A stretch of DNA of 22,869 nt from positions 1 through 22,869 of the IMG/VR virus record IMGVR_UViG_3300018048_000068; one strand, given 5' to 3'. Origin of the DNA: a virus. Made by a program: the position numbers and the translations under genes. Below the pieces are notes generated by a model, which saw only the letters and a list, made by a program, of their open reading frames with translations, ran no database searches and was not told where the DNA came from. Within the stretch, counting starts at the first letter, position 1; each line of letters opens with the position of its first letter. Shown in pieces: positions 8,464 through 22,268 of the stretch.

Positions 8464-9157
8464 TCTGTTTAATACAGGTTGTACTATAAATTCGTCAGGT
8501 ACAACTGGCACGCCTAAAGAAATATTTAGAACACCCGATAATCTAAAATGGTGTGCTGATGCTGCTGTAGATTCTCAAGAAATATCATCGTCGTCAAAGA
8601 TTTATACTGTTTGCAAAATGTCTCATGCAGGCGGACTGTTAGCACAAACACTTCCTGGATTGAGGATTGGCGCTAGTGTAGACATAGAGCCGTTTAATCC
8701 ATATACATATTTTAAAAATTTAATAAACAAAAAATATACACACTCTCATTTAACACCCGGGCACTGCAAAGCACTAATGCAGACACACAGTTGGGACACT
8801 GTTGATTTATCAGGAATATGGATTACGTGCGGAGCAGATCCTGTTACTTGGGACATCATAGAAGGGTTTGTTTCTAAAGGTGCAACCTTTATGTCTAATT
8901 GGGGTATGAGTGAAATAGGACCTTGTGCTATTAACACAGTATTTAGATCTCAAGAAGATATAAATCTGTTTAAAAACAATCAAGGAACTATTTTAGGTAA
9001 TAGATTTTATTGTGATTGGAAAATAGAAAATCAGCAGTTGTATGTCAAAGGTAATCAATGTATATACAATGATTGGTTTGACACTGCTGATCTAGTTGTA
9101 AATTTACAAGACTGTTTATATTATACAGGTAGAATTAATTTATTACAGCAAACATAA
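8441..9157 (+). CDS. Minimal AMP-binding (ANL superfamily) adenylating enzyme, 238 aa
   Basis: ANL enzymes activate a carboxylate with ATP to an acyl-adenylate and often pass it to CoA. Core motifs are visible: the phosphate loop SSGTTGTPK (18-26, motif A3), NWGMSEIGP (153-161, A5), WFDTADLV (212-219, A7) and the hinge TGRIN (229-233, A8). The protein ends 5 residues after the hinge, so the roughly 100-residue C-terminal domain with the A10 lysine is missing, and about 150 N-terminal residues of a usual 450-550 residue enzyme are missing too. MenE-like ligases are the nearest compact relatives I know. AAGGA (8426-8430) precedes the ATG. It overlaps the GNAT-like gene and, tail to tail, the opposite-strand gene by 23 bases. 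The family is firm; substrate and activity are unknown. Confidence 0.82.
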   Translation: MSEAKLLNLFNTGCTINSSGTTGTPKEIFRTPDNLKWCADAAVDSQEISSSSKIYTVCKMSHAGGLLAQTLPGLRIGASVDIEPFNPYTYFKNLINKKYTHSHLTPGHCKALMQTHSWDTVDLSGIWITCGADPVTWDIIEGFVSKGATFMSNWGMSEIGPCAINTVFRSQEDINLFKNNQGTILGNRFYCDWKIENQQLYVKGNQCIYNDWFDTADLVVNLQDCLYYTGRINLLQQT

Positions 9158-9707
9158 TACCAGCATTTCCTGTTTCATCAATTTCTGGTAATAGTTCTTC
9201 TGTAATGTCTGTTTTCTTAACAATAGTAGGATTCCATTCTAACTGTCTTGTTGTTACTATATTGTCTATAATACCACTAATTCTTTTATTATAGTCTACA
9301 ATAGTATCCACTGTTAGACTTGGAATAACATTAACCATATTGCCTGCTCTTTTTAACAATGCTTGTTCTCCGTTACCTGTAGCACGTTTAAAAAAGAAGT
9401 GTTTGTCATCCGGATACTCTTCTAGTAATCTTTCAACTTGAATAGACGATGCTAACCCTCTAATTATCATACCGTTAAAATTTGCATTAGTTAACGATTC
9501 AGTTTTAGATGTTAATTTTTCTTTAATTAAGTCGTAGCGTTCAAGCATATCTAAACTATCGTTAGGATTCAATTTATAGTGTCTGAATCCCATAGTATTG
9601 ATCATGTCCCATAAAAGGTTACGATTAAATACTAAATGTTCAAGTAACCGTTCAGCAAACATACGTTCGCCACTATACATTGGTCCGTGTACAAAAATTC
9701 TTTCCAT
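9135..9707 (-). CDS. P-loop-like hypothetical protein, 190 aa
   Basis: The N-terminus RIFVHGPMYSGERMFAERLLEHL has the strand, glycine/serine loop and helix of a P-loop, comparable in position to the sulfotransferase-like proteins encoded upstream in the same operon but lacking their GxPGSxWS motif. The remainder is helical with a VVTTRQLEWNP-like C-terminal part and no other signature. AGGAG lies 8 bases before the start (complement of 9716-9720). It is the last gene of the leftward operon and its 3' end overlaps the AMP-binding gene by 23 bases on the other strand. Function unknown. Confidence 0.65.
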   Translation of the reverse strand: MERIFVHGPMYSGERMFAERLLEHLVFNRNLLWDMINTMGFRHYKLNPNDSLDMLERYDLIKEKLTSKTESLTNANFNGMIIRGLASSIQVERLLEEYPDDKHFFFKRATGNGEQALLKRAGNMVNVIPSLTVDTIVDYNKRISGIIDNIVTTRQLEWNPTIVKKTDITEELLPEIDETGNAGIMFAVIN

Positions 9708-9726
9708 TAATAATACTCCTATATTA

Positions 9727-10422
9727 TTATTTATCTAATATGCTTGTTAAATTATAATGGGCAATCGATACATCAAAATGCCAAAAACTGCCTTCTGGCA
9801 ATTGTCGCATTTCAAGTGAACGCATATAATTATCAAGTTCTTCTGTATCTCTATTTATGCCCCATACAGACTTCCAATACTTCTCTCTGGCTGTGTGTAT
9901 ATCTAAATCATGTTCTGCAATAAACTTTTTTATAGCCCTATTTTCTTTTTCAATTTCATACTTTAAAAATATTTCATCTTTATAGTATTTACTGTAGTTA
10001 GGGTATGTAATTTTTTCAAAGCCGCCAGCAGAAGTCCAACCTGCATAAGCACTAGCATCTGGTCTGTAAACCATAATGATACCTGCCTTTGGGAAAGTTT
10101 CTTTTATGAAGTCTAAATGTAAACTAAAATGATGGCATCTAACTAACTTGTATTGCCCTGTTTCAGCAAGATAAGCACTACTAATCTCTGATAATATTTC
10201 ATCTTTTGTCAAGGTATCTAAGCGATCAAATCGTTCGCCTATGCCATTGCCTGGACCAAAGAACGCACCTTGATGTGCTATTTTAACATCATCGTGATAG
10301 TAGTATCTATCTTTGCTGTAGTCTGAAGTATTAAACTTGCCCGTTTGGCAAATAATGTGGGAAGTTGCACTCCATTTACTACCCGGAGAACCAGTAAAAA
10401 ATATTAACTTACTTTCATCCAT
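9727..10422 (-). CDS. Sulfotransferase-like P-loop protein, paralogue B
   Basis: The 231-residue protein opens MDESKLIFFTGSPGSKWSAT: a strand, then GSPGSKWS (11-18), where sulfotransferases have the 5'-phosphosulfate loop. Further on, QYKLVRCHHFSLHLDFI and GIIMVYRPDASAYAGW resemble the 3'-phosphate-binding region. It shares GxPGSxWS, the GAFFGPGxGxGxxFD segment, the VYRPD strand and GGFxxxxYPxYSxY with the proteins at 10975-11568 and 19892-20590. The start is put at 10422, not 10476: this places the P-loop at the same residues as in the 10975-11568 paralogue and leaves only an 8-base overlap (ATGGATGA) with the methyltransferase, whereas 10476 adds 18 unrelated residues. Sulfate transfer is inferred from motif layout only. 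Confidence 0.68.
   Translation of the reverse strand: MDESKLIFFTGSPGSKWSATSHIICQTGKFNTSDYSKDRYYYHDDVKIAHQGAFFGPGNGIGERFDRLDTLTKDEILSEISSAYLAETGQYKLVRCHHFSLHLDFIKETFPKAGIIMVYRPDASAYAGWTSAGGFEKITYPNYSKYYKDEIFLKYEIEKENRAIKKFIAEHDLDIHTAREKYWKSVWGINRDTEELDNYMRSLEMRQLPEGSFWHFDVSIAHYNLTSILDK
9728..9735 (-). promoter_or_regulatory. Possible late-promoter-like GATAAATA on the minus strand
   Basis: GATAAATA reads on the minus strand 20 bases before the ATG at 9707. It includes the last codons of the preceding gene (GAT AAA TAA, coding Asp-Lys-stop), so it may be coincidence. Recorded because the same octamer occurs at 1778 and 12337. Confidence 0.25.
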
Positions 10423-10972
10423 TCTTAAGCCAGGTCCAGCGTTTACGTTTGCCCATTCCTTCAGTATCATATACAATAGGTTCTACAAGGAACGAGAAAT
10501 TGTATTTTTCTGTAAATTCGTTAAGCATACCAGGTGCCCAACCACAATGTCGTTTATTAGGAAATTGACCTAGTGCAATTCGCATTTCAATAATGCCTCC
10601 AGGCTTACACCAACCAACAATTTTATCTATATTTTCTCTAATATAATCATGACTAATAAACTGTATGCTACCTAGAGACAACACAACGTCTGCACACTCT
10701 GGTTCAAACTCTGCATCTAATATTGTTGACTGAAAATCAATATCTGGAAACGGTGACGGATCAAACCCTATCAAATTTGGTATATACGCCTTATGTGGAT
10801 TACGGCCGCATCCTGCATCAATTACCAATGAAGGATTTCTTGCATTAACTCGTTCATAGAGTTCTTGTAATCCTGCATTTTCTTGAAAATGATCACCTCT
10901 CCAGGTTACTGGATCAAAACGTTTAGTTAGGATATCATTATCGTAATATAAATCGTCTGTCATATCTGCCAT
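10415..10972 (-). CDS. SAM-dependent methyltransferase, paralogue B (class I-like)
   Basis: Motif I is LVIDAGCGRN (49-58), followed by IPNLIGFDPSPFP, a motif II acidic residue at D71, and ADVVLSLGSIQF (94-105, motif IV). WCKPGGIIEMR (121-131) is the usual post-motif strand. At 185 residues it is compact, with little beyond the SAM-binding core, so the acceptor is not predictable. It clearly resembles the methyltransferase at 19228-19857 (shared VIDAGCGxN, NLIGFD, PFP, LGSxQF, KPGG) and less closely the one at 11577-12317. AAGG lies 8 bases before ATG 10972; a second ATG at 10963 is possible. It overlaps the sulfotransferase-like gene downstream by 8 bases and follows the previous gene by 2. 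Confidence 0.85.
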   Translation of the reverse strand: MADMTDDLYYDNDILTKRFDPVTWRGDHFQENAGLQELYERVNARNPSLVIDAGCGRNPHKAYIPNLIGFDPSPFPDIDFQSTILDAEFEPECADVVLSLGSIQFISHDYIRENIDKIVGWCKPGGIIEMRIALGQFPNKRHCGWAPGMLNEFTEKYNFSFLVEPIVYDTEGMGKRKRWTWLKNG

Positions 10973-10974
10973 TA

Positions 10975-11568
10975 TTAAACCTTAACTATAGTTACTAAAC
11001 AGTCGTGAAACGTGTCAAATTTTACATGGTCTATGTTACTAACATCAAATACTTCTTTAAAGAATTTGGTATTAAAATGATACCATGTACAATCATGCTT
11101 ATGTGCAAACTCTAATATACATCTATTTTGTTCTGCAATTTCGGCATGCATTTTAGTACTGTTTCTATAAGAACTATAGTCTGGATATTTGATGCTGAAC
11201 CCACCTGCTTCGTGCCACCAGGCAAGGCTAACTGTATCTGGACGATACACTAACATAATCCAATCAGTAGGATACTTTTCTTTTATTTGATCCAGCACAT
11301 GAGCCCAATCGTGACTTTTAATTAGTCTAGTGCCGCCATCGTCTTTCCAAGGCCTATCTAGATATTCAGGATTGTCTAAGTATGCTTCATACTCCATACC
11401 AACACCAAAGTATGCACCTTTGTGTCCAGAGAAAGCATGATGGCTGTATTCTTTAGATGGGTCTCTGTCCGATGTGTTTAGATTTAGTTGTTCTTCAAGT
11501 ATTTGTGCAATACCGCTCCAACGACTTCCTGGCACACCTGTAAAAAATATTCTGTTTGGATATTTCAT
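10975..11568 (-). CDS. Sulfotransferase-like P-loop protein, paralogue A
   Basis: Residues RIFFTGVPGSRWSG (6-19) give a strand plus GVPGSRWS loop at 11-18. LIKSHDWAHVLDQIKEKYP and WIMLVYRPDTVSLAWW follow, resembling the KSH and R-x-P-x-D elements that hold PAPS in sulfotransferases, and then GGFSIKYPDYSSY and an ExAEQNR helix. At 197 residues it is short next to typical sulfotransferases (about 250-300). AAGGA lies 6 bases before ATG 11568. It is 8 bases downstream of one methyltransferase and 2 bases upstream of another. The family membership is moderately supported by motif layout and by two close paralogues in the window; donor and acceptor are unknown. Confidence 0.68.
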   Translation of the reverse strand: MKYPNRIFFTGVPGSRWSGIAQILEEQLNLNTSDRDPSKEYSHHAFSGHKGAYFGVGMEYEAYLDNPEYLDRPWKDDGGTRLIKSHDWAHVLDQIKEKYPTDWIMLVYRPDTVSLAWWHEAGGFSIKYPDYSSYRNSTKMHAEIAEQNRCILEFAHKHDCTWYHFNTKFFKEVFDVSNIDHVKFDTFHDCLVTIVKV

Positions 11569-11576
11569 GATTTTCC

Positions 11577-12317
11577 TTATTCTGGCTTATGAAACTCAAA
11601 GTACAATCGATCGCCGTTGTCTTTTTTAAACTTTTCTAATTCTAAGTTGTGTTTTTTTGCTAGTTCAAATGCAAATTCAAATGACCAAGGAAAAATATCA
11701 ACATATGGTCCTTTAGGCCATAGATGTCCTGGATTAGCACGGAAGTACATACGTCCGCCTGGCATTAACAATTCATCTAGTTTAGCAAAACGCTCTTCTA
11801 GTTCGTCTTTAGAATTAAAGTTTAAACTGCCAAATACAATAATATGATCAAACGACTGTGGGTCAACTTTAAAGTCTAAAATATCAACCATATAATCCGC
11901 AGCAGTATTATAAGGATCAATACCAACTAGGTTGTTAATACGACCTTTAAAAGGATTGTATCCACACCCAAAATCTAATACATTCTTAGGATCAGCATTG
12001 TTGATTAGTTCTACTAGGTTCCAGCCGCTGTATTGATATTTGCCTGTTTCTGGTTGCCAAACTTCTCCAAAGAAACGATTCATATATCGTTCGTTACAAC
12101 GTTTAACAATTTGCTCAATAGTACCTGTTAGATCAACTTCAGAAAAATCTAATTCTTGCTGAATTTTTTCTTGAAACTTTAAAAAACGCTTAGGAGTCCA
12201 AGGAAGTTCAGAAATTATTGTATTTTTATCAAAATTTTTCTCTAATGTGTCATATTTTGGCAAAGAAAACGCTTCAGCAAGATTTTGTTTTAGCATATTA
12301 AAAATCCGTAAATTCAT
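11577..12317 (-). CDS. SAM-dependent methyltransferase, paralogue A
   Basis: The 246-residue protein has motif I NVLDFGCGYN (112-121), then PFKGRINNLVGIDPYN with the acidic ribose-binding D134, FDHIIVFGSLNF (156-167) and LLMPGGRMYFR (183-193). About 110 residues precede motif I, unlike the two shorter paralogues, and may form a substrate-binding lid. The motif spacing between GCGxN and GxDP is the same short form as in the others. The start is put at 12317 because GGAGA lies upstream at usual spacing; the ATG at 12332 has no binding site. It is the first gene of the leftward operon, divergent from tctC, and is 8 bases from the sulfotransferase-like gene. Confidence 0.85.
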   Translation of the reverse strand: MNLRIFNMLKQNLAEAFSLPKYDTLEKNFDKNTIISELPWTPKRFLKFQEKIQQELDFSEVDLTGTIEQIVKRCNERYMNRFFGEVWQPETGKYQYSGWNLVELINNADPKNVLDFGCGYNPFKGRINNLVGIDPYNTAADYMVDILDFKVDPQSFDHIIVFGSLNFNSKDELEERFAKLDELLMPGGRMYFRANPGHLWPKGPYVDIFPWSFEFAFELAKKHNLELEKFKKDNGDRLYFEFHKPE

Positions 12318-12336
12318 TTGTCTTTTCTCCATCGAT

Positions 12337-12344
12337 GATAAATA
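12337..12344 (+). promoter_or_regulatory. Putative T4-type late promoter (GATAAATA)
   Basis: GATAAATA on the plus strand lies in the divergent gap between the leftward operon and tctC, identical to the element at 1778. It is 121 bases upstream of the tctC start, longer than at the other sites, so either the leader is long or the site is not used. No clear sigma70 promoter was found for either direction in this gap. Confidence 0.35.
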
Positions 12345-12350
12345 ATTTCA

Positions 12351-12421
12351 ACAGTAAAGTGTTTTTCATAAACATCTTACTGTAATATACTTAATTATCT
12401 CTTTCTAGACCTCTTAGAGGT
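12351..12421. repeat. Inverted repeats in the divergent intergenic region
   Basis: ACAGTAA (12351-12357) and TTACTGT (12377-12383) form a 7-bp inverted repeat with a 19-base spacer, and ACCTCTTAGAGGT (12409-12421) is a 13-bp palindrome with a single central base. Both lie between the divergently read methyltransferase and tctC genes, where a shared operator would sit. Neither is followed by a T-tract. The rest of the 133-base gap holds the tctC ribosome binding site and nothing else recognised. Confidence 0.55.
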
Positions 12422-12465
12422 AATTGTGGTATATACAATGCTATCTAACTTAATAAGGAGTGAAA

Positions 12466-13524
12466 ATGAAGCGTTTAATTTTAACTTTAGCAATGGTACT
12501 AGGCATTGCTACTCCTGCACTTGCTGACTATACACTTATAGTTCCACAAGAGCCAGGAAAAGGTACTAGTGTATGGGGCGGTATTATTGCTAAGAACCTT
12601 AGTAAGTTTACCGACGAGCCAGTAGTAGTACGCCATATTCCAGGCGCACGTGATATCCCAGGTTATAACAAGTTCCATAACGAACTACGTTTTGACGACA
12701 AGACTATCATGGTTGCACATGGCGGTAATGGTGTGTCATTCTTGCTTGACAAGGTTGATTACAACTACTTTGAATACGACTTAATTGGTTCTATGAACAA
12801 CGATATCGTTCTTGGTAAGCACAAAGGTGCAAACGAAAAGAAAGGTAACTGGAAGATTGCTGGCGGATCAGGTTTTGAACCAGACGGTGCGGCAGTTGCT
12901 ATGTTGCTTTGTGGTCCACAAGGTAGTGGTACCGTTGACGAGTACTTAAAGTGCTGGCGTGAACGTGCTACTTGGATCAACGGTGTAGGTGGCGGCGAAA
13001 AGCGTCTAGGCTTTAAAAACAAGGAGTTTGATGTTGCTCGTGAATCACCAGCGGCTTGGAACAAGTTTTATAAGCACATTGAAGAAAACGAATTGTGGTT
13101 TACACATGGTATTCTTGATCTAAAGAACAAGCGTCAAATGGCTGATCCTAACTTCCCAGGCACACAGTTTGAGGAGAAGTATAAAGCACTTTGGGGCGAA
13201 TATCCAAAAGGTGATTTGTATAATGCATACAAACTAACTCGTAACTGGCGTGATGCTATTCAAAAGTCACTATGGGTAAACAAGGGCAATCCAAATACCG
13301 AAAAACTTCGTACTGCTCTTAACAAGATGATCGCAGATCCAGAATCATCAGCAGAAATTAAGAAACTTGCTGGCGACTATCCTTGGATTGTTGGCGATGA
13401 CGGTCCTGCAATGCTTGCAGTTCTTAAGTCTTTGATCACTGAAAAAGCTCTTAAAGATGCTGTTAAGTGGAACCAGGAAGCATACGGTTTCCCTTCAGTA
13501 TACAAGCCAGAACTTTTGAAGTAA
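12466..13524 (+). CDS. tctC: TctC/Bug-type periplasmic solute-binding protein of a tripartite tricarboxylate transporter
   Basis: Bug proteins capture carboxylates (such as citrate, other di- or tricarboxylates or aromatic acids) in the periplasm and hand them to TctAB. The first 20 residues, MKRLILTLAMVLGIATPALA, are a textbook Sec signal with an ALA cleavage site, so the mature protein begins DYTLIVPQEPGKGTS. The N-terminal strand and GKGTSVWGGIIAKNL, then VVRHIPGARDIPGYN, follow the usual Bug order, and total length (352) fits. The start is ATG 12466 with AAGGAG (12455-12460) 5 bases before; the GTG at 12460 overlaps that site. The permease follows after 17 bases. A host-membrane transport gene is unusual in a phage; the ligand cannot be read from the sequence. 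Confidence 0.85.
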   Translation: MKRLILTLAMVLGIATPALADYTLIVPQEPGKGTSVWGGIIAKNLSKFTDEPVVVRHIPGARDIPGYNKFHNELRFDDKTIMVAHGGNGVSFLLDKVDYNYFEYDLIGSMNNDIVLGKHKGANEKKGNWKIAGGSGFEPDGAAVAMLLCGPQGSGTVDEYLKCWRERATWINGVGGGEKRLGFKNKEFDVARESPAAWNKFYKHIEENELWFTHGILDLKNKRQMADPNFPGTQFEEKYKALWGEYPKGDLYNAYKLTRNWRDAIQKSLWVNKGNPNTEKLRTALNKMIADPESSAEIKKLAGDYPWIVGDDGPAMLAVLKSLITEKALKDAVKWNQEAYGFPSVYKPELLK

Positions 13525-13541
13525 GATAGGAAGGTAAAAAC

Positions 13542-15050
13542 ATGCTTGAATACGTAATGTGGGCGGTTATTGGTACCGTTTATGGAATGGTCGTTGGAGT
13601 TGTTCCTATTGCGGGGGTTACCACTGCCCTCATCACAGTGTTTAGTATGGGGCCATACTTTTTATCAGATCCGTATGCGGGTCTGGTATTCCTTACAGCA
13701 ATTGTAGCAAGTTGTGCAAGTGCCGATAGTTATACTAGTATCCTTACTGGTATTCCTGGTGCAAGCACAACTGCTGCTTGCGTCATTGATGGTTATCCAA
13801 TGGCAAAAAGAGGAGAGGCGGCTCGAGCAATGGGCATAGCAATTGCAGATAGTACGTTTAACGGCGTTCTATATGCATTGCTTGCTTTTTTGCTACTACC
13901 GTATTACGGTAAAATTATAGGACTATTTGGACGTCCTGAATTTTTAGGGTTTATGATGATGGCACTTGCTTGTGTAGGATTTGTTGCAAGTAAGCGAGTG
14001 TTTTCAAGTATTATTGCAATTACATTAGGTCTGTTTATAGGATTAATAGGACAGAACAGCGTAGGATCACCTAGATTTGCGTTTGGCTGGGAGTACCTTG
14101 AAGCAGGCGTAGGGATGATTGCATTACTTTCAGGTCTGTTTGGTATTCCTGAATTATTAGATGGTTTTAAATATGGTAAAACTGCGGCGCCACCAATGGC
14201 TGTTGAAAACTATTGGCCTCAATTAAAACAAGGTTTTAGAGATGTGCGCACAAACTGGCGAGATATGGTTCGTGGCGGTTTTATTGGATTCGTAACAGGA
14301 CTACTACCAGGTGTAGGAGGTGCTGTTGGAGACTTTTTAGCATACGGTGCAACTAAGGCTGCACATAAAGAAAAACAAGAAATTCCATTTGGTGAAGGCA
14401 ATCCAATTGGACTACTAGGATGTGAAGGTGCAAACAATGCACAAAAAGTTTCTAGTATGATTCCTGCTGTACTATTTGCTATTCCAGCGGCGCCATTTGC
14501 GGCAATGGTAATGGCTATTGCAATTTACTTTGGTATGGAAATTGGTAGACCTAGTCTACTAACAGACGAAAAGTTTGTAACTAGTATTGCATTTGGATAT
14601 GTGTTTGGTACTATAGGTGTTGCTCTATTAAGTATTTTTATGTATAGATGGATTATTAAAATCCTTGAAGTACCTTATTGGATCTATGCATCAGTCATTC
14701 TTGCTGTTATTGTCTATGCTAATATGCAGTATACTCAAGGTTGGGAAGATCTTGCATTACTAGGTATTTTAAGTGCTATTGGCGTAGTGTTAAAACATTA
14801 CAAAATTAGTAGGCCGGCAATTTTAGTTGCATATGTTGTTGCATTTAAGATTGACGAGTATTTTTACGGCACACTACAATTGTATGGTTACAAACAATGG
14901 AAATCATTTCCGGAATCATTTGAAGGATTCCGTTGGGGTGAACTCTTTAGCATTACAGAGCATCCGTTGTTTATTCTCTCTATAATCATCTCTGTAGGCA
15001 TACTCATAAATAGTATAGTTAGAAAAGACAGAGGTATAGATTTCACATGA
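13542..15050 (+). CDS. tctA: TctA-type large permease subunit of a tripartite tricarboxylate transporter
   Basis: This 502-residue polytopic inner-membrane protein has the TctA length and signature. Near the N-terminus it shows VVGVVPIAGVTTAL and the loop LTGIPGASTTAACVIDGYPM followed by AKRGEAARAMG, and the second half repeats the motif as GFVTGLLPGVGGAVGDFLAYG, in keeping with the two-fold pseudo-repeat of the family. About ten to twelve hydrophobic segments are visible. AGGAAGG lies about 7 bases before the ATG. The small subunit TctB, usually encoded between tctC and tctA, is absent here. The stop overlaps the next start (ATGA), so the transporter and the tailoring genes that follow are in one transcriptional unit. 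Probably powered by ion gradient, as in the family. Confidence 0.92.
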   Translation: MLEYVMWAVIGTVYGMVVGVVPIAGVTTALITVFSMGPYFLSDPYAGLVFLTAIVASCASADSYTSILTGIPGASTTAACVIDGYPMAKRGEAARAMGIAIADSTFNGVLYALLAFLLLPYYGKIIGLFGRPEFLGFMMMALACVGFVASKRVFSSIIAITLGLFIGLIGQNSVGSPRFAFGWEYLEAGVGMIALLSGLFGIPELLDGFKYGKTAAPPMAVENYWPQLKQGFRDVRTNWRDMVRGGFIGFVTGLLPGVGGAVGDFLAYGATKAAHKEKQEIPFGEGNPIGLLGCEGANNAQKVSSMIPAVLFAIPAAPFAAMVMAIAIYFGMEIGRPSLLTDEKFVTSIAFGYVFGTIGVALLSIFMYRWIIKILEVPYWIYASVILAVIVYANMQYTQGWEDLALLGILSAIGVVLKHYKISRPAILVAYVVAFKIDEYFYGTLQLYGYKQWKSFPESFEGFRWGELFSITEHPLFILSIIISVGILINSIVRKDRGIDFT

Positions 15051-15802
15051 GACATAAAACTAATTGGCAGAAGAAACTTGCTGATCCTTCAGAATACAAA
15101 AGTAACTGGGATTGGACAGTAGCACACAGTGAATATCATTTTGATATTAACAAAGAAGATAAGGTAGGCGACTGGTTTGATATTTTAGGTACATTTGATA
15201 ATCCTGAATTATGGAAGGCTGAACGCGATGCTATCGTAAAAGAAGCATATCCTATTAACTGGGAAACTAGAAAATATTACGGAGATAATGATGAAGTATC
15301 ACCAATGCTTGAACAAGAAGAATACGATATTGCACAAGGCGGCACAAATCCTAAAGAATTAATGCTTACTAATTTGTATGACAAATTAGAATACGAACCA
15401 GAAAAATTTCCTGTACTTACTAAGATGGCAAACTACTTTGGTTTAGACCTTGGTTATGGTAGTGCAACTAAGAAACGTATTCATGCACAAATGCCTGGAC
15501 AAATGTTTAACTTGCATATAGACAAGTTATGGGATCGTGATCCCGTAGATCCAGAACGTGTTGCTCGCATTACAGTTTTCTTAGAAGATTGGAAACCAGG
15601 ACAATTTTATATGTATGGTAACTATGTTTACTCGCATTGGAAAGCAGGCGAGGCACATATATTTGACTGGCCTAACGTTCCACACGCTACTGCTAATGCT
15701 AGTAACGACATACGTGTAAGTTTACAATTAACAGGTTTTAAAACAGAAAGAACAAGACGTTTAATTAATAATGCAAGCGTTAATAATGTGTTTAAGATCT
15801 AA
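15047..15802 (+). CDS. Fe(II)/2-oxoglutarate-dependent oxygenase-like protein, paralogue 1
   Basis: The 251-residue protein carries an iron triad HxD...H: H157-I-D159 in NLHIDKLWD and H213 in NVPHATAN, with R223 ten residues after the distal histidine, where such enzymes bind the 2-oxoglutarate carboxylate. The surrounding pattern (MPGQMFNLHID, VFLEDWKPGQ, SHWKAGEAHIFDW, RVSLQLTG) is like aspartyl/asparaginyl beta-hydroxylase-type jelly-roll oxygenases. It is paralogous to the proteins at 16442-17128 and 20587-21573. Translation is coupled to tctA through ATGA. The substrate is unknown; hydroxylation of a small molecule, lipid, glycan or peptide is possible. The fold call rests on motif geometry. 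Confidence 0.78.
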   Translation: MRHKTNWQKKLADPSEYKSNWDWTVAHSEYHFDINKEDKVGDWFDILGTFDNPELWKAERDAIVKEAYPINWETRKYYGDNDEVSPMLEQEEYDIAQGGTNPKELMLTNLYDKLEYEPEKFPVLTKMANYFGLDLGYGSATKKRIHAQMPGQMFNLHIDKLWDRDPVDPERVARITVFLEDWKPGQFYMYGNYVYSHWKAGEAHIFDWPNVPHATANASNDIRVSLQLTGFKTERTRRLINNASVNNVFKI

Positions 15803-15804
15803 AT

Positions 15805-16434
15805 ATGAAACCTACTTTAGTAGTAATGACAGGTCCGCAAGGATCAGGGAATCATCTGTTTAGTAAAGCATTTACTAACAACCCTGCTCTTTGCGGATGG
15901 TCTACTTTAAAGGAAAAATACTGGGAAGGGCACGACATGGAGCCTTTTGCAGAATATTGGAAAGATCCTAAAAAGTTAATTGAGTACGATTGGAATAAAA
16001 GCGATTACTTTATTACTAGTATAAGTTGTCCTTTCTTTGATGATGGTGTTGAAAGTGTTCCTAAGTATATTGAATTTATTACAGAAGCAAAAAAATATGC
16101 TTTCATAAAAGTACTTATAATTGGACGTGATCAAAATATTTTAGAACATCAGCAATACAGAGTAAGAGATAAACATACAACTCCTGTATTCTTAGATAAC
16201 ATTAAATACTTACTAAATTTTAATCCTTTTTTTGTATCGCAAGAACTATTATATCTTTATCAACTACCATACCTCAATACAATAGAACAATATTTAAATT
16301 TACCGTTGTCTACGGATGAAGCAGGATTGCGTCAGATATTAGATACAGATGCTAACAAAAAATATATTACACCTGTTACAACAAATTGGTTAGACGAACA
16401 TATAAAATTAGCCTCCAGTAAAAAAGGGGGCTAA
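15805..16434 (+). CDS. P-loop (kinase/sulfotransferase-like) protein, 209 aa
   Basis: Residues LVVMTGPQGSGNHLFSKAF (5-23) form a strand, a GPQGSGNH loop and a helix, like the nucleotide- or PAPS-binding loop of sulfotransferases and small-molecule kinases; the canonical lysine of Walker A is replaced by Asn. VLIIGRDQNILEHQQYR (about 109-125) resembles the second PAPS-binding strand with its arginine. It is more divergent from the GxPGSxWS paralogues but keeps the same gene-neighbour logic, lying between two oxygenase paralogues with gaps of 2 and 7 bases. No strong Shine-Dalgarno precedes ATG 15805, so it depends on coupling. Function unknown. Confidence 0.68.
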   Translation: MKPTLVVMTGPQGSGNHLFSKAFTNNPALCGWSTLKEKYWEGHDMEPFAEYWKDPKKLIEYDWNKSDYFITSISCPFFDDGVESVPKYIEFITEAKKYAFIKVLIIGRDQNILEHQQYRVRDKHTTPVFLDNIKYLLNFNPFFVSQELLYLYQLPYLNTIEQYLNLPLSTDEAGLRQILDTDANKKYITPVTTNWLDEHIKLASSKKGG

Positions 16435-16441
16435 ATATAAT

Positions 16442-17128
16442 ATGCAAAGACCTAACGCAGAAAATTTTACAAGCAATTATGAGTGGTCAAAGAGTATTAG
16501 CAAATATCACTTTGATGACACAGTTATTGATCAACCAGGCGAATGGTTTCAAGATTTAGGAAATATCCGTGGTGATTGGAATGATGAACTTGAACGTATC
16601 ATTGTAGATGCTCCTGAGAGAACCTGGGCTACAAGAAAATCAGAAAATCAAAAAAATAGATTTCTAGCAATGGAATTAAATGACATTGCTGAAGGCGGCG
16701 GAAATCCAAATGCTGTTATTTCTAGACTAGGTTACAACGTAGAAGATTATCCTAAAGTTAATCGTATAGCAGATTTTTTTGAATTAGAAAATGTACAAAA
16801 AAGACTACACGTACAATTAACTGGACAGTTATGGCATTTACATCTTGACAAATTGTATCACGTAGATAAAATACACCCAGACAGAATTGTAAGAATTATG
16901 ATTATGTTAACTCCTTGGACTCAAGGACATATATACCAATATGGAACAACTTATTATTCTCATTGGAAAGCCGGTGATGTTCATATTTTTGATTGGATGA
17001 ACACTCCACACTCAACTGCTAATACAAGTTACAAACCTCGTGTAACTTTGCAATTAACAGGAATTAAAACTTCTAAAACACAAGAAATAATAGATAACGC
17101 ACCTTATACTTTTCCGGACATATTATGA
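16442..17128 (+). CDS. Fe(II)/2-oxoglutarate-dependent oxygenase-like protein, paralogue 2
   Basis: The 228-residue protein repeats the layout of the 15047 gene: H134-L-D136 in HLHLDKLYH, H190 in NTPHSTAN, and R200 ten residues later. The N-terminal region also matches (NYEWSKSISKYHFDD against NWDWTVAHSEYHFDI), as does the stretch SHWKAGDVHIFDW and the final LQLTGIKT. All three iron ligands and the 2-oxoglutarate arginine are present, so it looks active. It is shorter by about 23 residues, mainly in the middle region before the HxD. The stop overlaps the start of the next gene (ATGA). Separate retention of both copies suggests different substrates or a heteromer; this is inference. Confidence 0.78.
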   Translation: MQRPNAENFTSNYEWSKSISKYHFDDTVIDQPGEWFQDLGNIRGDWNDELERIIVDAPERTWATRKSENQKNRFLAMELNDIAEGGGNPNAVISRLGYNVEDYPKVNRIADFFELENVQKRLHVQLTGQLWHLHLDKLYHVDKIHPDRIVRIMIMLTPWTQGHIYQYGTTYYSHWKAGDVHIFDWMNTPHSTANTSYKPRVTLQLTGIKTSKTQEIIDNAPYTFPDIL

Positions 17129-17481
17129 TTGAACTTTTAATCACTAATGCAATTTATGTTGCATATCGTTTACTCGTCTCTGCTCAAATAGTAAAATTTT
17201 TAAACAAACATTTTACATATTATATTGCAGTATTGTTAATGGCGCAACTTAGTTTTGCATATGATACATTTGTATTTGGTCATTACTTTAATGCACAAGA
17301 CATTCCGCCAGTTTTAGAATATTTAAAATCTGATTTGCTATATACTTTACGTGTATTAGCAGCATGGTGGCTAATTAAGCAAATATGGAATATAGTTAAG
17401 AACTATTGGGTAGCAGTATTCATAGGTGCAGAGATTACGTTTGTTGCAGACTTCTTTATTTTTAAGGATTTATTTAACTAA
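17125..17481 (+). CDS. Small four-helix integral membrane protein, 118 aa
   Basis: Four hydrophobic segments are visible, at roughly residues 4-24, 32-51, 68-88 and 94-114, with few charged residues between them. There is no signal peptide and no recognised family motif. Translation is coupled to the oxygenase upstream by an ATGA overlap. Size and four-segment topology are like TctB, the subunit missing from the transporter upstream, but there is no sequence feature that confirms this; a holin or a membrane anchor for the tailoring enzymes are alternatives. Confidence 0.65.
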   Translation: MIELLITNAIYVAYRLLVSAQIVKFLNKHFTYYIAVLLMAQLSFAYDTFVFGHYFNAQDIPPVLEYLKSDLLYTLRVLAAWWLIKQIWNIVKNYWVAVFIGAEITFVADFFIFKDLFN

Positions 17482-17498
17482 AGTAAAAGGATATCATA

Positions 17499-17714
17499 AT
17501 GAAGTACTTAGACTTCAAACATTTAAAACATACAAAGACTTCGTATTTCACACATCTGTTTTATGCTACAAAATTAAATATCCTAGCACTATTAGTGTTT
17601 ATAACTGGAACTATACACAGTTTTATACCAATACTATTTCCTTACACTCCGTATAAGTTAGCAAAAAAGATTGTTGATGTAACCGAAGAGAAGTTTGGCA
17701 AACCGTTAGATTAA
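17499..17714 (+). CDS. Small membrane protein resembling DUF6356, 71 aa
   Basis: The pattern YFTHLFYATKLNILALLVF then GTIHSFIPILFPYTPYKLAK resembles the DUF6356 family, in which an FxH...A helix is followed by an IHxxxPxxF segment; members are found near capsule and surface-polysaccharide genes and in phages. One clear membrane segment and a second shorter one are visible, with an amphipathic C-terminal helix. AAAGGA precedes ATG 17499 by about 9 bases. It is 1 base upstream of the carbamoyltransferase. The family call is from memory of the pattern. Confidence 0.6.
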   Translation: MKYLDFKHLKHTKTSYFTHLFYATKLNILALLVFITGTIHSFIPILFPYTPYKLAKKIVDVTEEKFGKPLD

Positions 17715-17715
17715 T

Positions 17716-19167
17716 ATGATATTAGGAATAAACAGTTTAAATCACGATGCTAGTGTTGCACTGATTAATAACAAAGACATACTATTTGCTGCTCATGCAG
17801 AGCGTTATAGTAGAATTAAAAACGACAAAACATTAAACAAAGATATCATTGCCGAAGCACTTACATACGGAACACCTGAAAAAATAGTTTGGTTTGAAAA
17901 GCCTTGGGCTAAAAGTGCAAGGAAACTATATTCAGGAGAACGTCCTTGGTTAGAACGTCCTAAGCAAGAACTCAAACGTTTAGGTTTAGGTAACATACCA
18001 TTTGAAACAGTATGGCATCACGAAGCTCATGCTGCCGCAGGATACTTTACTAGTCCATTTGAAGAAGCAGCCGTATTAGTTATAGATGCTATAGGCGAAT
18101 GGGATACATTATCTATATGGCACGGTAAAGGTTCTAAGTTAACAAAAAAATTCTCAATTAAATATCCAGATAGTATTGGATTATTTTATACTGCATTTAC
18201 TGACTGGGCAGGACTAAAACCTAATGAAGAAGAATATATCTTTATGGGTATGGCAGCATATGGAAAGCCGTTGCTATATGAAGATATTAAAAAAGAATTC
18301 TTTTGCGAATGGAAACCACCTTACTTTCAATTAACTAAAAATTTACATAGAGGCATTAAAGACTGGCAAATGCCTAAAGGCGTAACAGCATATGATGTTG
18401 CGGCTTCTGTACAAAAAATTGTAGAAGAATTTATATTAGAAACTGTAACATACATTAAACAAACTATTGACAGTGATAATCTAGTGTACATGGGCGGCGT
18501 GGCACTAAATTGTGTTGCTAATACGTTAATTGCAGATTCTAAGTTATTTCAAGACATTTGGATAATGCCTAATCCAGGTGACTCTGGTTCAGCAATTGGA
18601 TCAGTTGCAGCATATACAAATGAACACTTGCACTGGACTAGTCCGTTTTTAGGAACCAACATAGGCATAGAATACGACCCTAGACAAGCAGTAAAAGAAC
18701 TATTAACAACAGGCATTGCTGGTTTAGCAACAGGTCGTGCAGAATTTGGTCCAAGAGCATTTGGTAATAGAAGTCTTATTGCTGACCCTAGAACGTTTGC
18801 TAACAAACAAAAAGTTAATGACATTAAACAAAGACAACAATTTAGACCATTTGCACCTGCTATCTTAGAAGAACACGCACATAGTTACTTTGATATGAGT
18901 GTTAAAACATCGCCATATATGCAATATACATTTAAATGTTCTAGACCTGATAAAATTCCTGCTGTTGTACATTTTGACAATACTAGTAGAATACAAACTG
19001 TAGCAAAAGGCGACGGACATTTTAGAGAGTTACTCGAACTATGGCACAAAGAAACAGGATGTCCAGTATTATTAAACACTAGCCTAAATATAAAAGGCGA
19101 ACCACTAGTAAATAACATAGATGATGCATTACGTTGGTCTAAGAAATATAATGTAAAAGTATTTTAA
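17716..19167 (+). CDS. NodU/TobZ-type O-carbamoyltransferase
   Basis: The 483-residue protein begins MILGINSLNHDASVALI, the ATPase-like N-terminus of the NodU/CmcH/TobZ family, with HDAS at 10-13, the metal-binding HHEAHAA (about 100-106) and VIDAIGEWDT following. The C-terminal YrdC-like part shows AEFGPRAFGNRSLIADPR, RPFAPAILEEHA and LNTSLNIKGEPLV, all family signatures. These enzymes make carbamoyl-adenylate from carbamoyl phosphate and ATP and transfer carbamoyl to a hydroxyl of a sugar or antibiotic. The protein is somewhat shorter than TobZ or NodU (about 560-600). No Shine-Dalgarno is visible; the start lies 1 base after the previous stop, so it is probably coupled. It is the last gene of the tctC operon. 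The acceptor is unknown. Confidence 0.9.
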   Translation: MILGINSLNHDASVALINNKDILFAAHAERYSRIKNDKTLNKDIIAEALTYGTPEKIVWFEKPWAKSARKLYSGERPWLERPKQELKRLGLGNIPFETVWHHEAHAAAGYFTSPFEEAAVLVIDAIGEWDTLSIWHGKGSKLTKKFSIKYPDSIGLFYTAFTDWAGLKPNEEEYIFMGMAAYGKPLLYEDIKKEFFCEWKPPYFQLTKNLHRGIKDWQMPKGVTAYDVAASVQKIVEEFILETVTYIKQTIDSDNLVYMGGVALNCVANTLIADSKLFQDIWIMPNPGDSGSAIGSVAAYTNEHLHWTSPFLGTNIGIEYDPRQAVKELLTTGIAGLATGRAEFGPRAFGNRSLIADPRTFANKQKVNDIKQRQQFRPFAPAILEEHAHSYFDMSVKTSPYMQYTFKCSRPDKIPAVVHFDNTSRIQTVAKGDGHFRELLELWHKETGCPVLLNTSLNIKGEPLVNNIDDALRWSKKYNVKVF

Positions 19168-19198
19168 TTCACTCTACGTTCTGTTACACATACCTTAA

Positions 19199-19206
19199 AA
19201 TAAATA
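19199..19206 (+). promoter_or_regulatory. Putative late-promoter-like element (AATAAATA)
   Basis: AATAAATA lies 21 bases before the ATG at 19228 in a 60-base gap between the carbamoyltransferase and the third methyltransferase. It shares the ATAAATA core of the elements at 1778, 6591 and 12337. No terminator hairpin is visible in the gap. Confidence 0.4.
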
Positions 19207-19227
19207 CACTTAGAAATAGGATGTAGG

Positions 19228-19857
19228 ATGAAAGAACAATTAGCAAATCATTTTGAACCTGAAAAATGGAAGGGTCACGCAGCCTTTCAGCATTATAAGT
19301 ATACAGGTAAAAATTTAATAGAAGAAGTAAATGCTTTAGATCCTGATCTAGTTATTGATGCTGGTTGTGGTCATAATAGATTTAAAGGTCATATAAAAAA
19401 CTTAATAGGTTTTGATTCAGAGCCATTCCCATTTGTTGATATTGTAGACTCTATTGAAAATGTAAAGTTTCGTGAAGGTAGTGCAGATGCAGTTCTAGCA
19501 TTAGGTAGTTTACAATTTGGTGATAGAGAGTTCGTTAAACAACAAACTGCAAAAGTTGCATCATGGCTAAAACCAGGTGGGTTTTTAATTATGCGTACTA
19601 TGAATGACTGGCTTAAAGATACTCCGTATCCATTTTGGGATCATCAATATAAATGGACTAAAGAAGATGTTGAAGACATTGGTGCAGAGTTAGGTTTAGA
19701 TATACATAAAGGAATCTTCACTGAATGGGTGCCTGAAAAAACTCCAGATGGTCCTAAATGGAAAAGTACCAGACTAGCATGGTGGTGGCAAAAGCCTGGC
19801 ATACGACAAAAATTTGAAATTGACACTGTGTCTTGCCACGTTAACGAACGTATGTAA
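19228..19857 (+). CDS. SAM-dependent methyltransferase, paralogue C
   Basis: The 209-residue protein has motif I LVIDAGCGHN (41-50), KNLIGFDSEPFP (58-69) with the acidic D63, ADAVLALGSLQF (86-97) and WLKPGGFLIMR (113-123). It aligns throughout with the protein at 10415-10972, and the N-terminus (FEPEKWKGHAAFQ against FDPVTWRGDHFQ) also matches, so the two are duplicates. The C-terminal 80 residues rich in Trp (WDHQYKWTKEDV, RLAWWWQKPG) are specific to this copy. An AGG lies 7 bases before the ATG. As in the leftward operon, a sulfotransferase-like gene follows, here after 34 bases. Confidence 0.85.
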   Translation: MKEQLANHFEPEKWKGHAAFQHYKYTGKNLIEEVNALDPDLVIDAGCGHNRFKGHIKNLIGFDSEPFPFVDIVDSIENVKFREGSADAVLALGSLQFGDREFVKQQTAKVASWLKPGGFLIMRTMNDWLKDTPYPFWDHQYKWTKEDVEDIGAELGLDIHKGIFTEWVPEKTPDGPKWKSTRLAWWWQKPGIRQKFEIDTVSCHVNERM

Positions 19858-19865
19858 AATACCAA

Positions 19866-19873
19866 GGTAAATA
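19866..19873 (+). promoter_or_regulatory. Weak late-promoter-like element (GGTAAATA)
   Basis: A TAAATA core lies 18 bases before ATG 19892, followed by AGGAG (19881-19885). It deviates in the first two bases from the better elements and the distance to the start is short. Listed only as part of the recurrent pattern. Confidence 0.25.
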
Positions 19874-19891
19874 GTTGTATAGGAGAGTTTA

Positions 19892-20590
19892 ATGGATAAT
19901 AATTATAAGTTTACGTTTGTTGCAGGTGCACCTGGAAGTGCATGGAGCATGATTAGTTTTAGAATGAAAATCACTGTTCCAGGTTATGACAAGTCTGACC
20001 AAACGGCAGAAAGACAGTATGACTTACCTGAAGCACACGCAAAAAATAATTATGACGTTAAAGACCGTTCAACCTGGAAGGCTAAAACGCACATTGGTAG
20101 TTACTATGGACCATATCATGGATTAGGTGACCAGTTTGACGACCTTACTTACTATAACGGAAATGTTGAAGGATTCTACGATGAATGTTTACGTCCATTT
20201 AACGATACAACAAAACCTAGAAAGTTAGTTAAATCACATTGGTTTGCATATAACTTAGATTGGTTGTGGGAAAACTGTAAAGGACACGATTTAATGTTAG
20301 TGTGGCGTGAAACTGACGCTGCTGATAAATGGTGGCATACTATGGGCGGCTGGGATATTAAGCATCCTGTATACGACTGGTATGTTGACGATGAACGTAT
20401 GCACAAACAAATTGCTATCGAGTCTGACAATATTTGGGAGTTTGGTGAGCGTAAAGGTGTTAAATGGTTAGACTACGACGTTAATGATTCATGGATACAA
20501 AAACGTTTTGGTGTTCCTTTCCTCAAAAAAGTTCAAGCAACACCTAAATTTGAGGATACAATCAAGATAGGATACATTACAATAACATGA
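19892..20590 (+). CDS. Sulfotransferase-like P-loop protein, paralogue C
   Basis: The 232-residue protein shows FVAGAPGSAWSM (9-20) as its loop, the SYYGPYHGLGDQFDDL segment, RKLVKSHWFAYNLDWLW, then DLMLVWRETDAADKWWHTMGG and IKHPVYDWY. Each has a counterpart in the proteins at 9727-10422 and 10975-11568. The KSH and WRxTD elements are in the place of the sulfotransferase 3'-phosphate-binding motifs. AGGAG is 6 bases before the ATG. It follows a methyltransferase, as the other two copies do, and overlaps the start of an oxygenase by 4 bases. Enzyme class is inferred from motif layout, and an inactive or different P-loop transferase is possible. Confidence 0.68.
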   Translation: MDNNYKFTFVAGAPGSAWSMISFRMKITVPGYDKSDQTAERQYDLPEAHAKNNYDVKDRSTWKAKTHIGSYYGPYHGLGDQFDDLTYYNGNVEGFYDECLRPFNDTTKPRKLVKSHWFAYNLDWLWENCKGHDLMLVWRETDAADKWWHTMGGWDIKHPVYDWYVDDERMHKQIAIESDNIWEFGERKGVKWLDYDVNDSWIQKRFGVPFLKKVQATPKFEDTIKIGYITIT

Positions 20591-21573
20591 GCAAGTTAAT
20601 GAATAAGATCATTCCACATGAGGAATGGGTAGAATTACAAAAAGATCTTACTGCTAGACAACAGGTTTGGGAGAAGGCAAGAGATTTACACAAACAAGGT
20701 TTAGGACCTAAACCAGGTCCTGTACCACGTAACTGGAACGATCCAGATACAGGAAAAGCAAGTCGTTGGTTACAAGCAAAAAGTTTTAGTAACTACGATG
20801 AAACAAGATTTGGTCCTGATCCTATAGATACTGTAATTGATAGATTGGGTATATTTGAAGGTTTTGACTTTAATGCAGATATTAAACACGCAGAAGAAAA
20901 CAGTTACGGTCCTACTACTCTAATTGATCGTACAGGAACTCCTGAATACAGAGATAAAAATAGTTCACACTATCCTATTACTATGGTTAACGATGCTGAT
21001 AAAGCAGGTGTTAATCTCGATGAAATGCCAATGTTTGATAGTTCACGTTGGATTAACGATCCGCATCAAGGCTGTCAAGCAATATCTGACTTTATTGCAC
21101 TAGACTATGAAAATGCTGACAAAGGCGCAAAGCGTGAGTACGGTTACGATAGTTTTCATATTCAACGTCCAGGGCAAATGTTGATGTATCATCATGATTT
21201 GTACTATGCTGTTATACGTGATGCAGATCCTGAATTATCATGGAAGCCTGAAAAATTAAGACGTTTTGTTATTTTTATGGAAGACTGGCGTCCTGGGCAT
21301 GTATGGATTGTAGGTAACACTGAATACAGTCATTGGCGTAAAGGCGAATGCATTACATGGAACTGGCAAGATATGCCACACGGTACTGCAAATCTAAGTC
21401 CTGTTCCACGTTATAGTATACACTTAACAGGTTACATGTCTGAACGTAGTTTTAAGTTTCACGAAAAGGCAAACAAAGATACACGATATAGACGAGATGC
21501 AGAAGGTAATTGGAAAATTACTCAAGTACAAGAAGATGGAACAGAAGTTGAAAGGATTGACTTCTGGGACTAA
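20587..21573 (+). CDS. Fe(II)/2-oxoglutarate-dependent oxygenase-like protein, paralogue 3 (long form)
   Basis: The 328-residue protein has the same active-site layout as the two shorter paralogues: H202-H-D204 in MYHHDLYY, H265 in DMPHGTAN and R275 ten residues later, with FMEDWRPGHVWIVGN, YSHWRKGECITWNW and HLTGYMSERS around them. It carries an extra N-terminal region of about 70 residues and a charged C-terminal tail (RYRRDAEGNWKITQVQEDGT). The start overlaps the preceding stop (ATGA). It is the last gene of the rightward unit and is closed by a strong terminator. The substrate is unknown; pairing with a methyltransferase and a sulfotransferase-like gene suggests successive modification of one molecule. 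Confidence 0.78.
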   Translation: MSKLMNKIIPHEEWVELQKDLTARQQVWEKARDLHKQGLGPKPGPVPRNWNDPDTGKASRWLQAKSFSNYDETRFGPDPIDTVIDRLGIFEGFDFNADIKHAEENSYGPTTLIDRTGTPEYRDKNSSHYPITMVNDADKAGVNLDEMPMFDSSRWINDPHQGCQAISDFIALDYENADKGAKREYGYDSFHIQRPGQMLMYHHDLYYAVIRDADPELSWKPEKLRRFVIFMEDWRPGHVWIVGNTEYSHWRKGECITWNWQDMPHGTANLSPVPRYSIHLTGYMSERSFKFHEKANKDTRYRRDAEGNWKITQVQEDGTEVERIDFWD

Positions 21574-21574
21574 T

Positions 21575-21599
21575 AAAAAGAGGCTTAGGCCTCTTTTTT
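21575..21599. terminator. Bidirectional intrinsic terminator
   Basis: AAAAAGAGGC (21575-21584) and GCCTCTTTTT (21589-21598) form a 10-bp stem with loop TTAG, followed by a T-run on the plus strand and, because of the A-run, on the minus strand too. It sits between two convergent units. The stop codon of the minus-strand gene (complement of 21585-21587) lies in the loop, so its last four codons are part of the stem. Confidence 0.92.
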
Positions 21600-22268
21600 A
21601 TTGAATTGTGTTTCTAACCAATCAAAGTCATTAATTAGTTTTAATTGCTCAGGATTATCGCTGTTACTAATACCAAAATTGCGACCAGCGATGGCACCAG
21701 AGATCGCGGCCCTTCCAAACTGTCTGTCACCTCCTGTTGTGGTCCAGACTGTAAGTCTTTTTTCAGTTTCATCGTCAATTTGTCCTTGTATTACTCTACT
21801 TGCTAATTTTGCACATTCTCTAAACGCACTGCGCCATGTACTAAATTCATCTGTATTAAACGCAGTAATATTACTAACTTCATCTATTGTTTTAAATAAT
21901 GTTGAAATACTAGTTGTCATGTCTGCTTTAGATACGTCCATATTTATTGTAAGTTTACGTGGTAATAATTTTACACCACCGTATCCATATTCAAGATCAT
22001 TTATTGGATTACGACTACGCCATACGTGAACTGTTTCTAAATCCCAATCTGTTACGTTATAAGAAAAATTAAAACTGTTAACTAATTCTGCATCAGCATC
22101 AACTACCCAAAACATTTTAGTAAAACATTTTTTAGCAGCAACAATATGCGCTTGATGAATTCCTTTAATACCATGTACACGTTTTGCCGTAGGAAATCTA
22201 TCTTTTAATTTTTTAAAGTTTTCGTCTGCATTTGGCTCGTTATAACTTATAAAAACTATGTCATACAT
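21585..22268 (-). CDS. Glycosyltransferase-like protein (GT-A type)
   Basis: The 227-residue protein starts MYDIVFISYNEPNADENFKKL and continues AKRVHGIKGIHQAHIVAAKK and MFWVVDADAELV. The last is a DxD-type motif (DADA, near residues 57-60) where GT-A glycosyltransferases bind the metal and nucleotide sugar. A later HVWRSRNPINDLEYGYGGVKLLP segment is a pattern I recall from marine phage glycosyltransferase-like proteins. The start is coupled to the upstream gene by an 8-base overlap, with no strong Shine-Dalgarno. The last codons lie inside the terminator. The likely role is glycosylation of virion, DNA or host surface; donor and acceptor are unknown. Confidence 0.68.
   Translation of the reverse strand: MYDIVFISYNEPNADENFKKLKDRFPTAKRVHGIKGIHQAHIVAAKKCFTKMFWVVDADAELVNSFNFSYNVTDWDLETVHVWRSRNPINDLEYGYGGVKLLPRKLTINMDVSKADMTTSISTLFKTIDEVSNITAFNTDEFSTWRSAFRECAKLASRVIQGQIDDETEKRLTVWTTTGGDRQFGRAAISGAIAGRNFGISNSDNPEQLKLINDFDWLETQFNKKEA

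Follow-up and report, generated by a model that had tools for sequence, protein, structure and literature searches.

The DNA analysed here (the window, 22,869 bases) is a fragment of an uncultured, aquatic T4-like phage deposited in IMG/VR (record IMGVR_UViG_3300018048_000068), which carries T4-type genes for a 5'-3' exonuclease, a MoxR-like AAA ATPase and a VWA metallopeptidase at its left end and, from position 9727 onwards, three gene pairs in which a class I S-adenosylmethionine (SAM) methyltransferase (MT) is accompanied by a P-loop protein that is probably sulfotransferase-like (ST). The six open reading frames have the coordinates and order given in the first-pass annotation and are pairwise adjacent. 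Pairs 1 and 2 form one tight run of four genes on the minus strand, namely MT 1 (P0001; 11577-12317), ST 1 (P0002; 10975-11568), MT 2 (P0003; 10415-10972) and ST 2 (P0021; 9727-10422), with successive spacings of an 8-nt gap, a 2-nt gap and an 8-nt overlap. Pair 3 lies on the plus strand, where MT 3 (P0005; 19228-19857) is followed, with a spacing of 34 nt, by ST 3 (P0006; 19892-20590), which in turn overlaps the third of three Fe(II)/2-oxoglutarate (2OG) oxygenase-like paralogues by 4 nt.

The motifs claimed for the methyltransferases are present in all three (for MT 1, 2 and 3, respectively, GCGYN, GCGRN and GCGHN; NLVGID, NLIGFD and NLIGFD; GSLNF, GSIQF and GSLQF), and pairwise BLAST comparisons (E = 4e-32, 8e-21 and 4e-16) place their homology far above chance. 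The partners, whose mutual homology had been proposed as a point to be checked, likewise prove homologous far above chance (E = 2e-30, 1e-18 and 6e-15). They share the P-loop (GVPGSRWS, GSPGSKWS and GAPGSAWS), a KSH, RCH or KSH segment and a GG...P.Y segment (GGFSIKYPDY, GGFEKITYPNY and GGWDIKHPVY), as described, but not the third motif, which is VYRPD in ST 1 and ST 2 and VWRET in ST 3, where the segment reads VWRETD.

Conservation was counted over 59 MT, 64 ST and 61 oxygenase sequences. The model of MT 2 (pLDDT 84) is that of a class I Rossmann methyltransferase, with 666 PDB chains matching at E <= 0.001; its best folds are small-molecule and tRNA methyltransferases, with toxoflavin N-methyltransferase, METTL6 and NodS among them, and the match to class I methyltransferases including NodS has an E-value of 7e-9. 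D52, GCG, D71, S102, F105, R131 and W145 are retained in all 59 members. The Rossmann fold, motif I (GCG) and the acidic residue after strand 2 (D71) that define class I SAM methyltransferases are all present. These features are shared with the small-molecule N/O-methyltransferases of the class (NodS, DDMT, METTL6), from which the family differs by an invariant W24, R131 and W145 and by a near-invariant NPG, which MT 2 itself lacks. Since the conserved residues exceed what SAM binding needs, the family is likely, as judged from its sequences, to act on one conserved type of substrate. No NCBIfam assignment was obtained, the only PHROG match is weak, and MT 3 barely passes the Methyltransf_11 threshold (21.3 bits against a cut-off of 21.2). 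MT 1 carries an additional N-terminal region of approximately 72 residues that is common to its orthologues; it is of a widespread type, encoded divergently from tctC.

The ST 1 model (pLDDT 95, predicted TM-score 0.92) has a single strong fold match, the viral protein A0A6J5LXF1 annotated as 'Sulfotransferase family' (TM-score 0.83, E 3e-15). The position of the Walker-A lysine is occupied by tryptophan in all 64 members, and the lysine of the GK[ST] signature of P-loop kinases is thus absent. Within the loop, GxPGSxWS, the position, the proline, the serine and the final Ser/Thr are invariant, while the Gly-Thr of the P-x-S-G-T-T type is replaced by Arg/Lys-Trp. A putatively catalytic K-x-H, located at a strand end in the model, comprises Lys84 (63 of 64 sequences, Arg in the remaining one) and His86 (64 of 64), and the putative 3'-phosphate-type arginine, Arg109, is present in every member. 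The modelled order strand-KSH-helix-strand-R-helix is the textbook order of the catalytic and 3'-phosphate sites of sulfotransferases that use 3'-phosphoadenosine 5'-phosphosulfate (PAPS). On this pattern of conservation (tryptophan for the Walker lysine, K/R84-x-H86 and Arg109) the partner is called sulfotransferase-like, probably of a compact, PAPS-dependent type. Two of 64 members give a weak match to Pfam Sulfotransfer_3, which counts in favour of this reading, and in ST 2 a weak match to that model covers the segment from K/R-x-H to the arginine. With the PAPS-dependent Sulfotransfer_1/_3 superfamily it has in common the P-loop fold, the K/R-x-H, the arginine before a helix and the viral fold neighbour; it differs in its size (approximately 200-230 residues), in the GxPGSxWS loop, in a conserved D34/H43/H49/WWHxxGG set and in having no significant Pfam or PDB match. 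Other viral sulfotransferases have been annotated as Sulfotransfer_3, their function being described as unclear (PMC10580990).

A scan of IMG/VR for ST relatives returned at least 186 stretches, and the following counts come from the best 80 loci (designated by L numbers, as are those found in reverse). A methyltransferase of the same family is present in 78 of these 80 loci, within 1 kb in 73, within 100 nt in 58 and never farther than 1.7 kb. The reverse scan returned at least 491 MT stretches, 119 of which were kept as MT-seeded loci, many of them cut by contig ends; an ST is found in 76, the oxygenase in 49, TctA in 56 and the two TctC types in 43 and 31. MT and ST are linked far beyond chance, and the multiplicity seen in the window is not unique, at least two ST and at least two MT genes being present in ten further contigs from about five lineages. 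No cellular relatives of ST were detected in GTDB genome scans (two alignments, by short-peptide patterns, a method that does not prove absence), and within the reach of the scans the family appears to be mainly viral. The sole deposited phage with an ST is the single-cell record Marine virus AG-345-D19, whose contig holds a psbA-like gene that points to a cyanophage. There (L086:8562-10654), the gene for a 1615-residue Mtd_N fibre protein is followed, after a single small gene, by two divergent copies of ST and a third P-loop-like protein.

The first-pass annotation had taken the constant order of the three pairs as pointing to the duplication of a two-gene module. The order does not hold in other phages: the 66 distinct pairs comprise 43 divergent ones, ten with ST followed by MT, seven with MT followed by ST and six convergent ones. 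Approximately unbiased (AU) tests also reject the three window copies as a clade, both for ST (p = 0.001-0.005) and for MT (p = 7e-5), and pair 1 does come from a source unrelated to that of pairs 2 and 3, an outcome that had been named in advance as fatal to the duplication. Pair 1 is a common type with orthologues in many phages, its MT standing divergently beside tctC in the window and in L005, L006, L098, L102 and L103; the ST in this slot is P0002-like in L005 and L006 and P0021-like, that is, of the pair 2 type, in L098 and L102. Similarly, the orthologue of MT 3 stands next to a P0021-like ST in L019 and L103 and near a P0006-like ST in L100 and L155; ST 3 itself matches its relatives in L098, L100 and L155 at 47-51%, and the relations of MT 2 and MT 3 to L019 differ from those of ST 2 and ST 3. 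AU tests for swapped partners in pairs 2 and 3 do not reach significance by themselves (p 0.18-0.22), and the exchange is claimed from orthologue identities and gene context. Tree distances of MT and ST nevertheless correlate (Spearman 0.64, with none of 999 permutations as high): the two genes travel together, yet are re-paired between pair types.

The Fe(II)/2OG oxygenase-like gene is also triplicated in the window (P0012, 15047-15802; P0013, 16442-17128; P0014, 20587-21573; all on the plus strand; E 1e-58 to 7e-18), and the amplification therefore covers three families rather than two. The members tested have no Pfam or PHROG match, but the residues of the HxD..H..R signature expected to bind metal and 2OG (His157, Asp159, His213 and Arg223) are invariant in 61 of 61 sequences, as in Fe(II)/2OG oxygenases. 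The unit is thus a mosaic island with at least three amplified families (MT, ST and Fe/2OG oxygenase) and not a duplicated two-gene module. MT, oxygenase and ST genes form uninterrupted runs in L098, L100 and L102 and at 19228-21573 of the window.

Between the two groups of pairs lie genes for transport. A TctC-like periplasmic binding protein with a signal peptide (P0019; 12460-13524, plus strand) falls below the Pfam threshold, but its comparison with the PF03401 TctC set that occupies the same slot elsewhere gives a profile probability of 96.5%, and the next gene encodes TctA, the large membrane subunit of the tripartite tricarboxylate transporter (P0020; 13542-15050, plus strand; E 1e-84, 284.6 bits). 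Receptor and large subunit of such a transporter are thus both present, TctB being presumed; the small multi-helix membrane protein P16 (P0016; 17125-17481, plus strand), which recurs right after tctC/tctA, is possibly its equivalent. A NodU/TobZ-type O-carbamoyltransferase (P0011; 17716-19167, plus strand) precedes pair 3. In relatives, the recurrent neighbours of ST and MT are TctC (PF03401) or a distant relative, TctA, small membrane proteins (P16, DUF6552), a PaaA/PaaC-like diiron protein, a class-I amidotransferase (C26), Fe/2OG oxygenases, the P-loop protein P8, SPASM radical SAM proteins, the carbamoyltransferase and adenosine 5'-phosphosulfate (APS) kinase. One conserved run, found in L091, L094, L095 and L106-L118, reads tctC-tctA-MT-(amidotransferase)-diiron protein-oxygenase-(ST)-MT, with two MT types. 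Orphan TctC receptors without TctA adjoin ST/MT in large contigs (L012, L041, L061, L082 and most freshwater loci), with up to four per contig (the 127 kb contig of L061).

Of these neighbours the APS kinase tells most. The family scores above the Pfam cut-off in 11 of 50 contigs and lies within 7 kb of an ST in eight cases, against 2.3 expected (P = 3e-5); its profile retrieves adenylyl-sulfate kinases first from the PDB (best 2yvu, E 9e-12), which identifies the protein of the relatives as an APS kinase. In L027:1-726 (minus strand) and L084:7551-8411 (plus strand) an APS-kinase-like domain is fused to a C-terminal nucleotidyltransferase-like domain with HxGH and ISGTxIR motifs, and this fusion possibly represents a new architecture, a one-protein analogue of PAPS synthetase.

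Fe/2OG oxygenases introduce hydroxyls, a sulfotransferase requires a hydroxyl or an amine on its acceptor, and the groups that methyltransferases can cap are hydroxyls, amines or carboxyls. We give about even chances to the window being part of a phage-borne uptake-and-tailoring island that hydroxylates, methylates and sulfates, with MT and ST acting on the same class of acceptor. The TctC/TctA-type system would import, and so supply or recover, a carboxylate-containing precursor in the infected cell; the Fe(II)/2OG oxygenases, together with the PaaA-like diiron protein in relatives, would hydroxylate it; MT and ST would then add methyl and sulfate to hydroxyl, amino or carboxyl groups, whether newly made or already present; and the APS kinase of some relatives would make more PAPS, the sulfate donor, available. 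By gaining, losing and re-pairing MT, ST and oxygenase copies as separate cassettes, a phage could change its pattern of decoration. Homology, linkage, the conservation of residues of catalytic type, the folds of both proteins, the association with APS kinase and Tct genes and the reshuffling are observed here; that PAPS is used, that one acceptor is shared, in which order the steps follow and whether the acceptor is a small acid or a glycan are the parts that we infer. The direct MT-oxygenase-ST runs would fit a chain of reactions on one acceptor. Several observations weigh against such a pathway: no scaffold-building enzyme was identified, which makes the acceptor a guess; APS kinase occurs in just 11 of 50 contigs and none was seen in the window fragment; and TctA is missing from most freshwater relatives with TctC, so that transport is not a constant part of the island. 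That self-contained sulfation-tailoring is widespread among aquatic phages, combining uptake of an extracellular acid, hydroxylation, methylation, a virus-specific sulfotransferase and, in some, phage-made PAPS, with shuffled cassettes giving each phage its own decorated molecule, is a tentative extension and rather doubtful.

The main rival places the acceptor on a surface, MT, ST, carbamoyltransferase and oxygenases modifying a glycan or a protein on either the virion tail fibre or the host envelope and thereby changing receptor binding or blocking superinfection. It owes its standing to the position of ST beside tail-fibre genes and to the glycosyltransferase cluster around an isolate relative of the oxygenase. 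In the window the island borders an Mtd_N-containing tail/receptor-type structural protein (6628-7149, plus strand), and in AG-345-D19 the ST genes follow the Mtd_N fibre gene. The NodU-type carbamoyltransferase would suit such a role, and the nearest isolate relative of the oxygenase, that of Synechococcus phage S-SCSM2R, has glycosyltransferases and an amidinotransferase as its neighbours. P0017, one of two further genes at 21585-22869 on the minus strand and itself lacking a Pfam match, contains a GT-A-like DxD segment (VVDADAEL), which also suggests a glycosyltransferase at the fragment edge. Most freshwater ST/MT loci, however, adjoin TctC, diiron-protein, PhoH or clamp-loader genes and not fibres, glycosyltransferases are few in the islands examined, and the secreted transport-binding proteins point to uptake; surface decoration is on balance rather unlikely.

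The fold of ST has no significant match in the PDB, where kinases and sulfotransferases rank together (E 0.04-0.5), profile searches of PDB sequences gave nothing useful, and the 3'-phosphate-binding serine is kept in just 57 of 64 members, all of which tells against a sulfotransferase. The Arg-Ser spacing is shorter than in textbook examples. If the partner were instead a kinase of small molecules or some other P-loop transferase, this would account for shikimate and gluconate kinases being the top PDB folds by E-value, and also for the Pfam sulfotransferase score being far below the cut-off. Such an enzyme is unlikely, however, given a Walker-A lysine in none of the 64 members, a K/R-x-H and an arginine as invariant as in sulfotransferases, APS kinase near ST and a viral fold neighbour annotated as a sulfotransferase.

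Returning to the uptake-and-tailoring island, its genes might also be neighbours without a joint function, MT and ST travelling together by chance in a hot spot for auxiliary genes. The re-pairing of partners between lineages and the existence of MT loci that lack an ST (L092, L093, L107 and L108) would agree with this, but an MT adjoins ST in nearly all ST loci, in each of the four arrangements and on contigs of between 5 kb and 335 kb, and the correlated tree distances speak against it as well, which leaves a chance association quite improbable. Phage DNA modification based on carbamoyl transfer and oxygenases is known, the weak best PHROG match of MT is a phage tRNA methyltransferase and its fold also resembles METTL6; even so, a role of MT, oxygenase, carbamoyltransferase and the P-loop enzyme in hypermodifying tRNA or a DNA base is very improbable in an island that holds a signal-peptide TctC with TctA, and family searches of the window proteins revealed neither a DNA-binding nor a TET/JBP-type domain. 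Duplication of a fixed MT-ST module within this phage lineage, for which the same order of all three pairs and the triplication of both families might speak, is scarcely credible after the AU rejections in both families and with pair 1 orthologues in many phages.

The first-pass annotation knew of no such described phage system, and none was found here: the open-licence literature searched yielded no phage sulfotransferase-methyltransferase module or island. Single components have been reported, namely 2OG-Fe(II) oxygenase and carbamoyltransferase genes in cyanophages (PMC3037559) and tctA, of unknown function, with a 2OG oxygenase in SUP05 viral contigs (PMC4164917); in the portions of these two reports consulted, the MT-ST pairing, the island and a link to sulfation were not found. 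The new element is probably a virus-specific sulfotransferase family within a phage auxiliary or tailoring island. Nod factors are tailored by the methyltransferase NodS, the sulfotransferase NodH, the carbamoyltransferase NodU and the acetyltransferase NodL. By analogy only, the island resembles this set in its combination of group transfers around what may be one acceptor; unlike it, the island has no chitooligosaccharide synthase, its MT and ST come from different protein families, and no membership is claimed. MT and ST side by side with hydroxylases, a transporter and sometimes a sulfate-donor enzyme in hundreds of related viruses suggest that tailoring chemistry and sulfation of some molecule are carried out by phages with enzymes of their own. 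Phage sulfotransferases, 2OG oxygenases, carbamoyltransferases and tctA, reported separately, would thereby be drawn into one recurring, shuffled island and one testable pathway; sulfation would join the chemistry that phages bring into cells, and the MT-ST pair offers marker genes for finding such phages.

The remaining genes of the island include P8 (P0008; 15805-16434, plus strand), from a second P-loop family (GPQGSGNH...RD) that elsewhere often occurs in tandem near ST. It was considered as a fourth ST and rejected (ST-P8 profile comparison probability 1%); searches of PDB sequences gave nothing useful and it fits no known family. Tandem copies are present in L017, L028, L033 and L079, and in both L029 and L033 there is an overlap with APS kinase genes. 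A three-gene set of P9, a GNAT-like protein (P0015) and an AMP-binding fragment (P0010) at 7188-9157 on the plus strand is counted as part of the island because it recurs beside ST in L098, L100, L102, L117 and L155. A DUF6356 protein of 71 residues (17499-17714) lies between P16 and the carbamoyltransferase, and P7 (190 residues; 9135-9707, minus strand), which has no family match, closes the MT/ST operon and begins with a P-loop-like HGPMYSGER.

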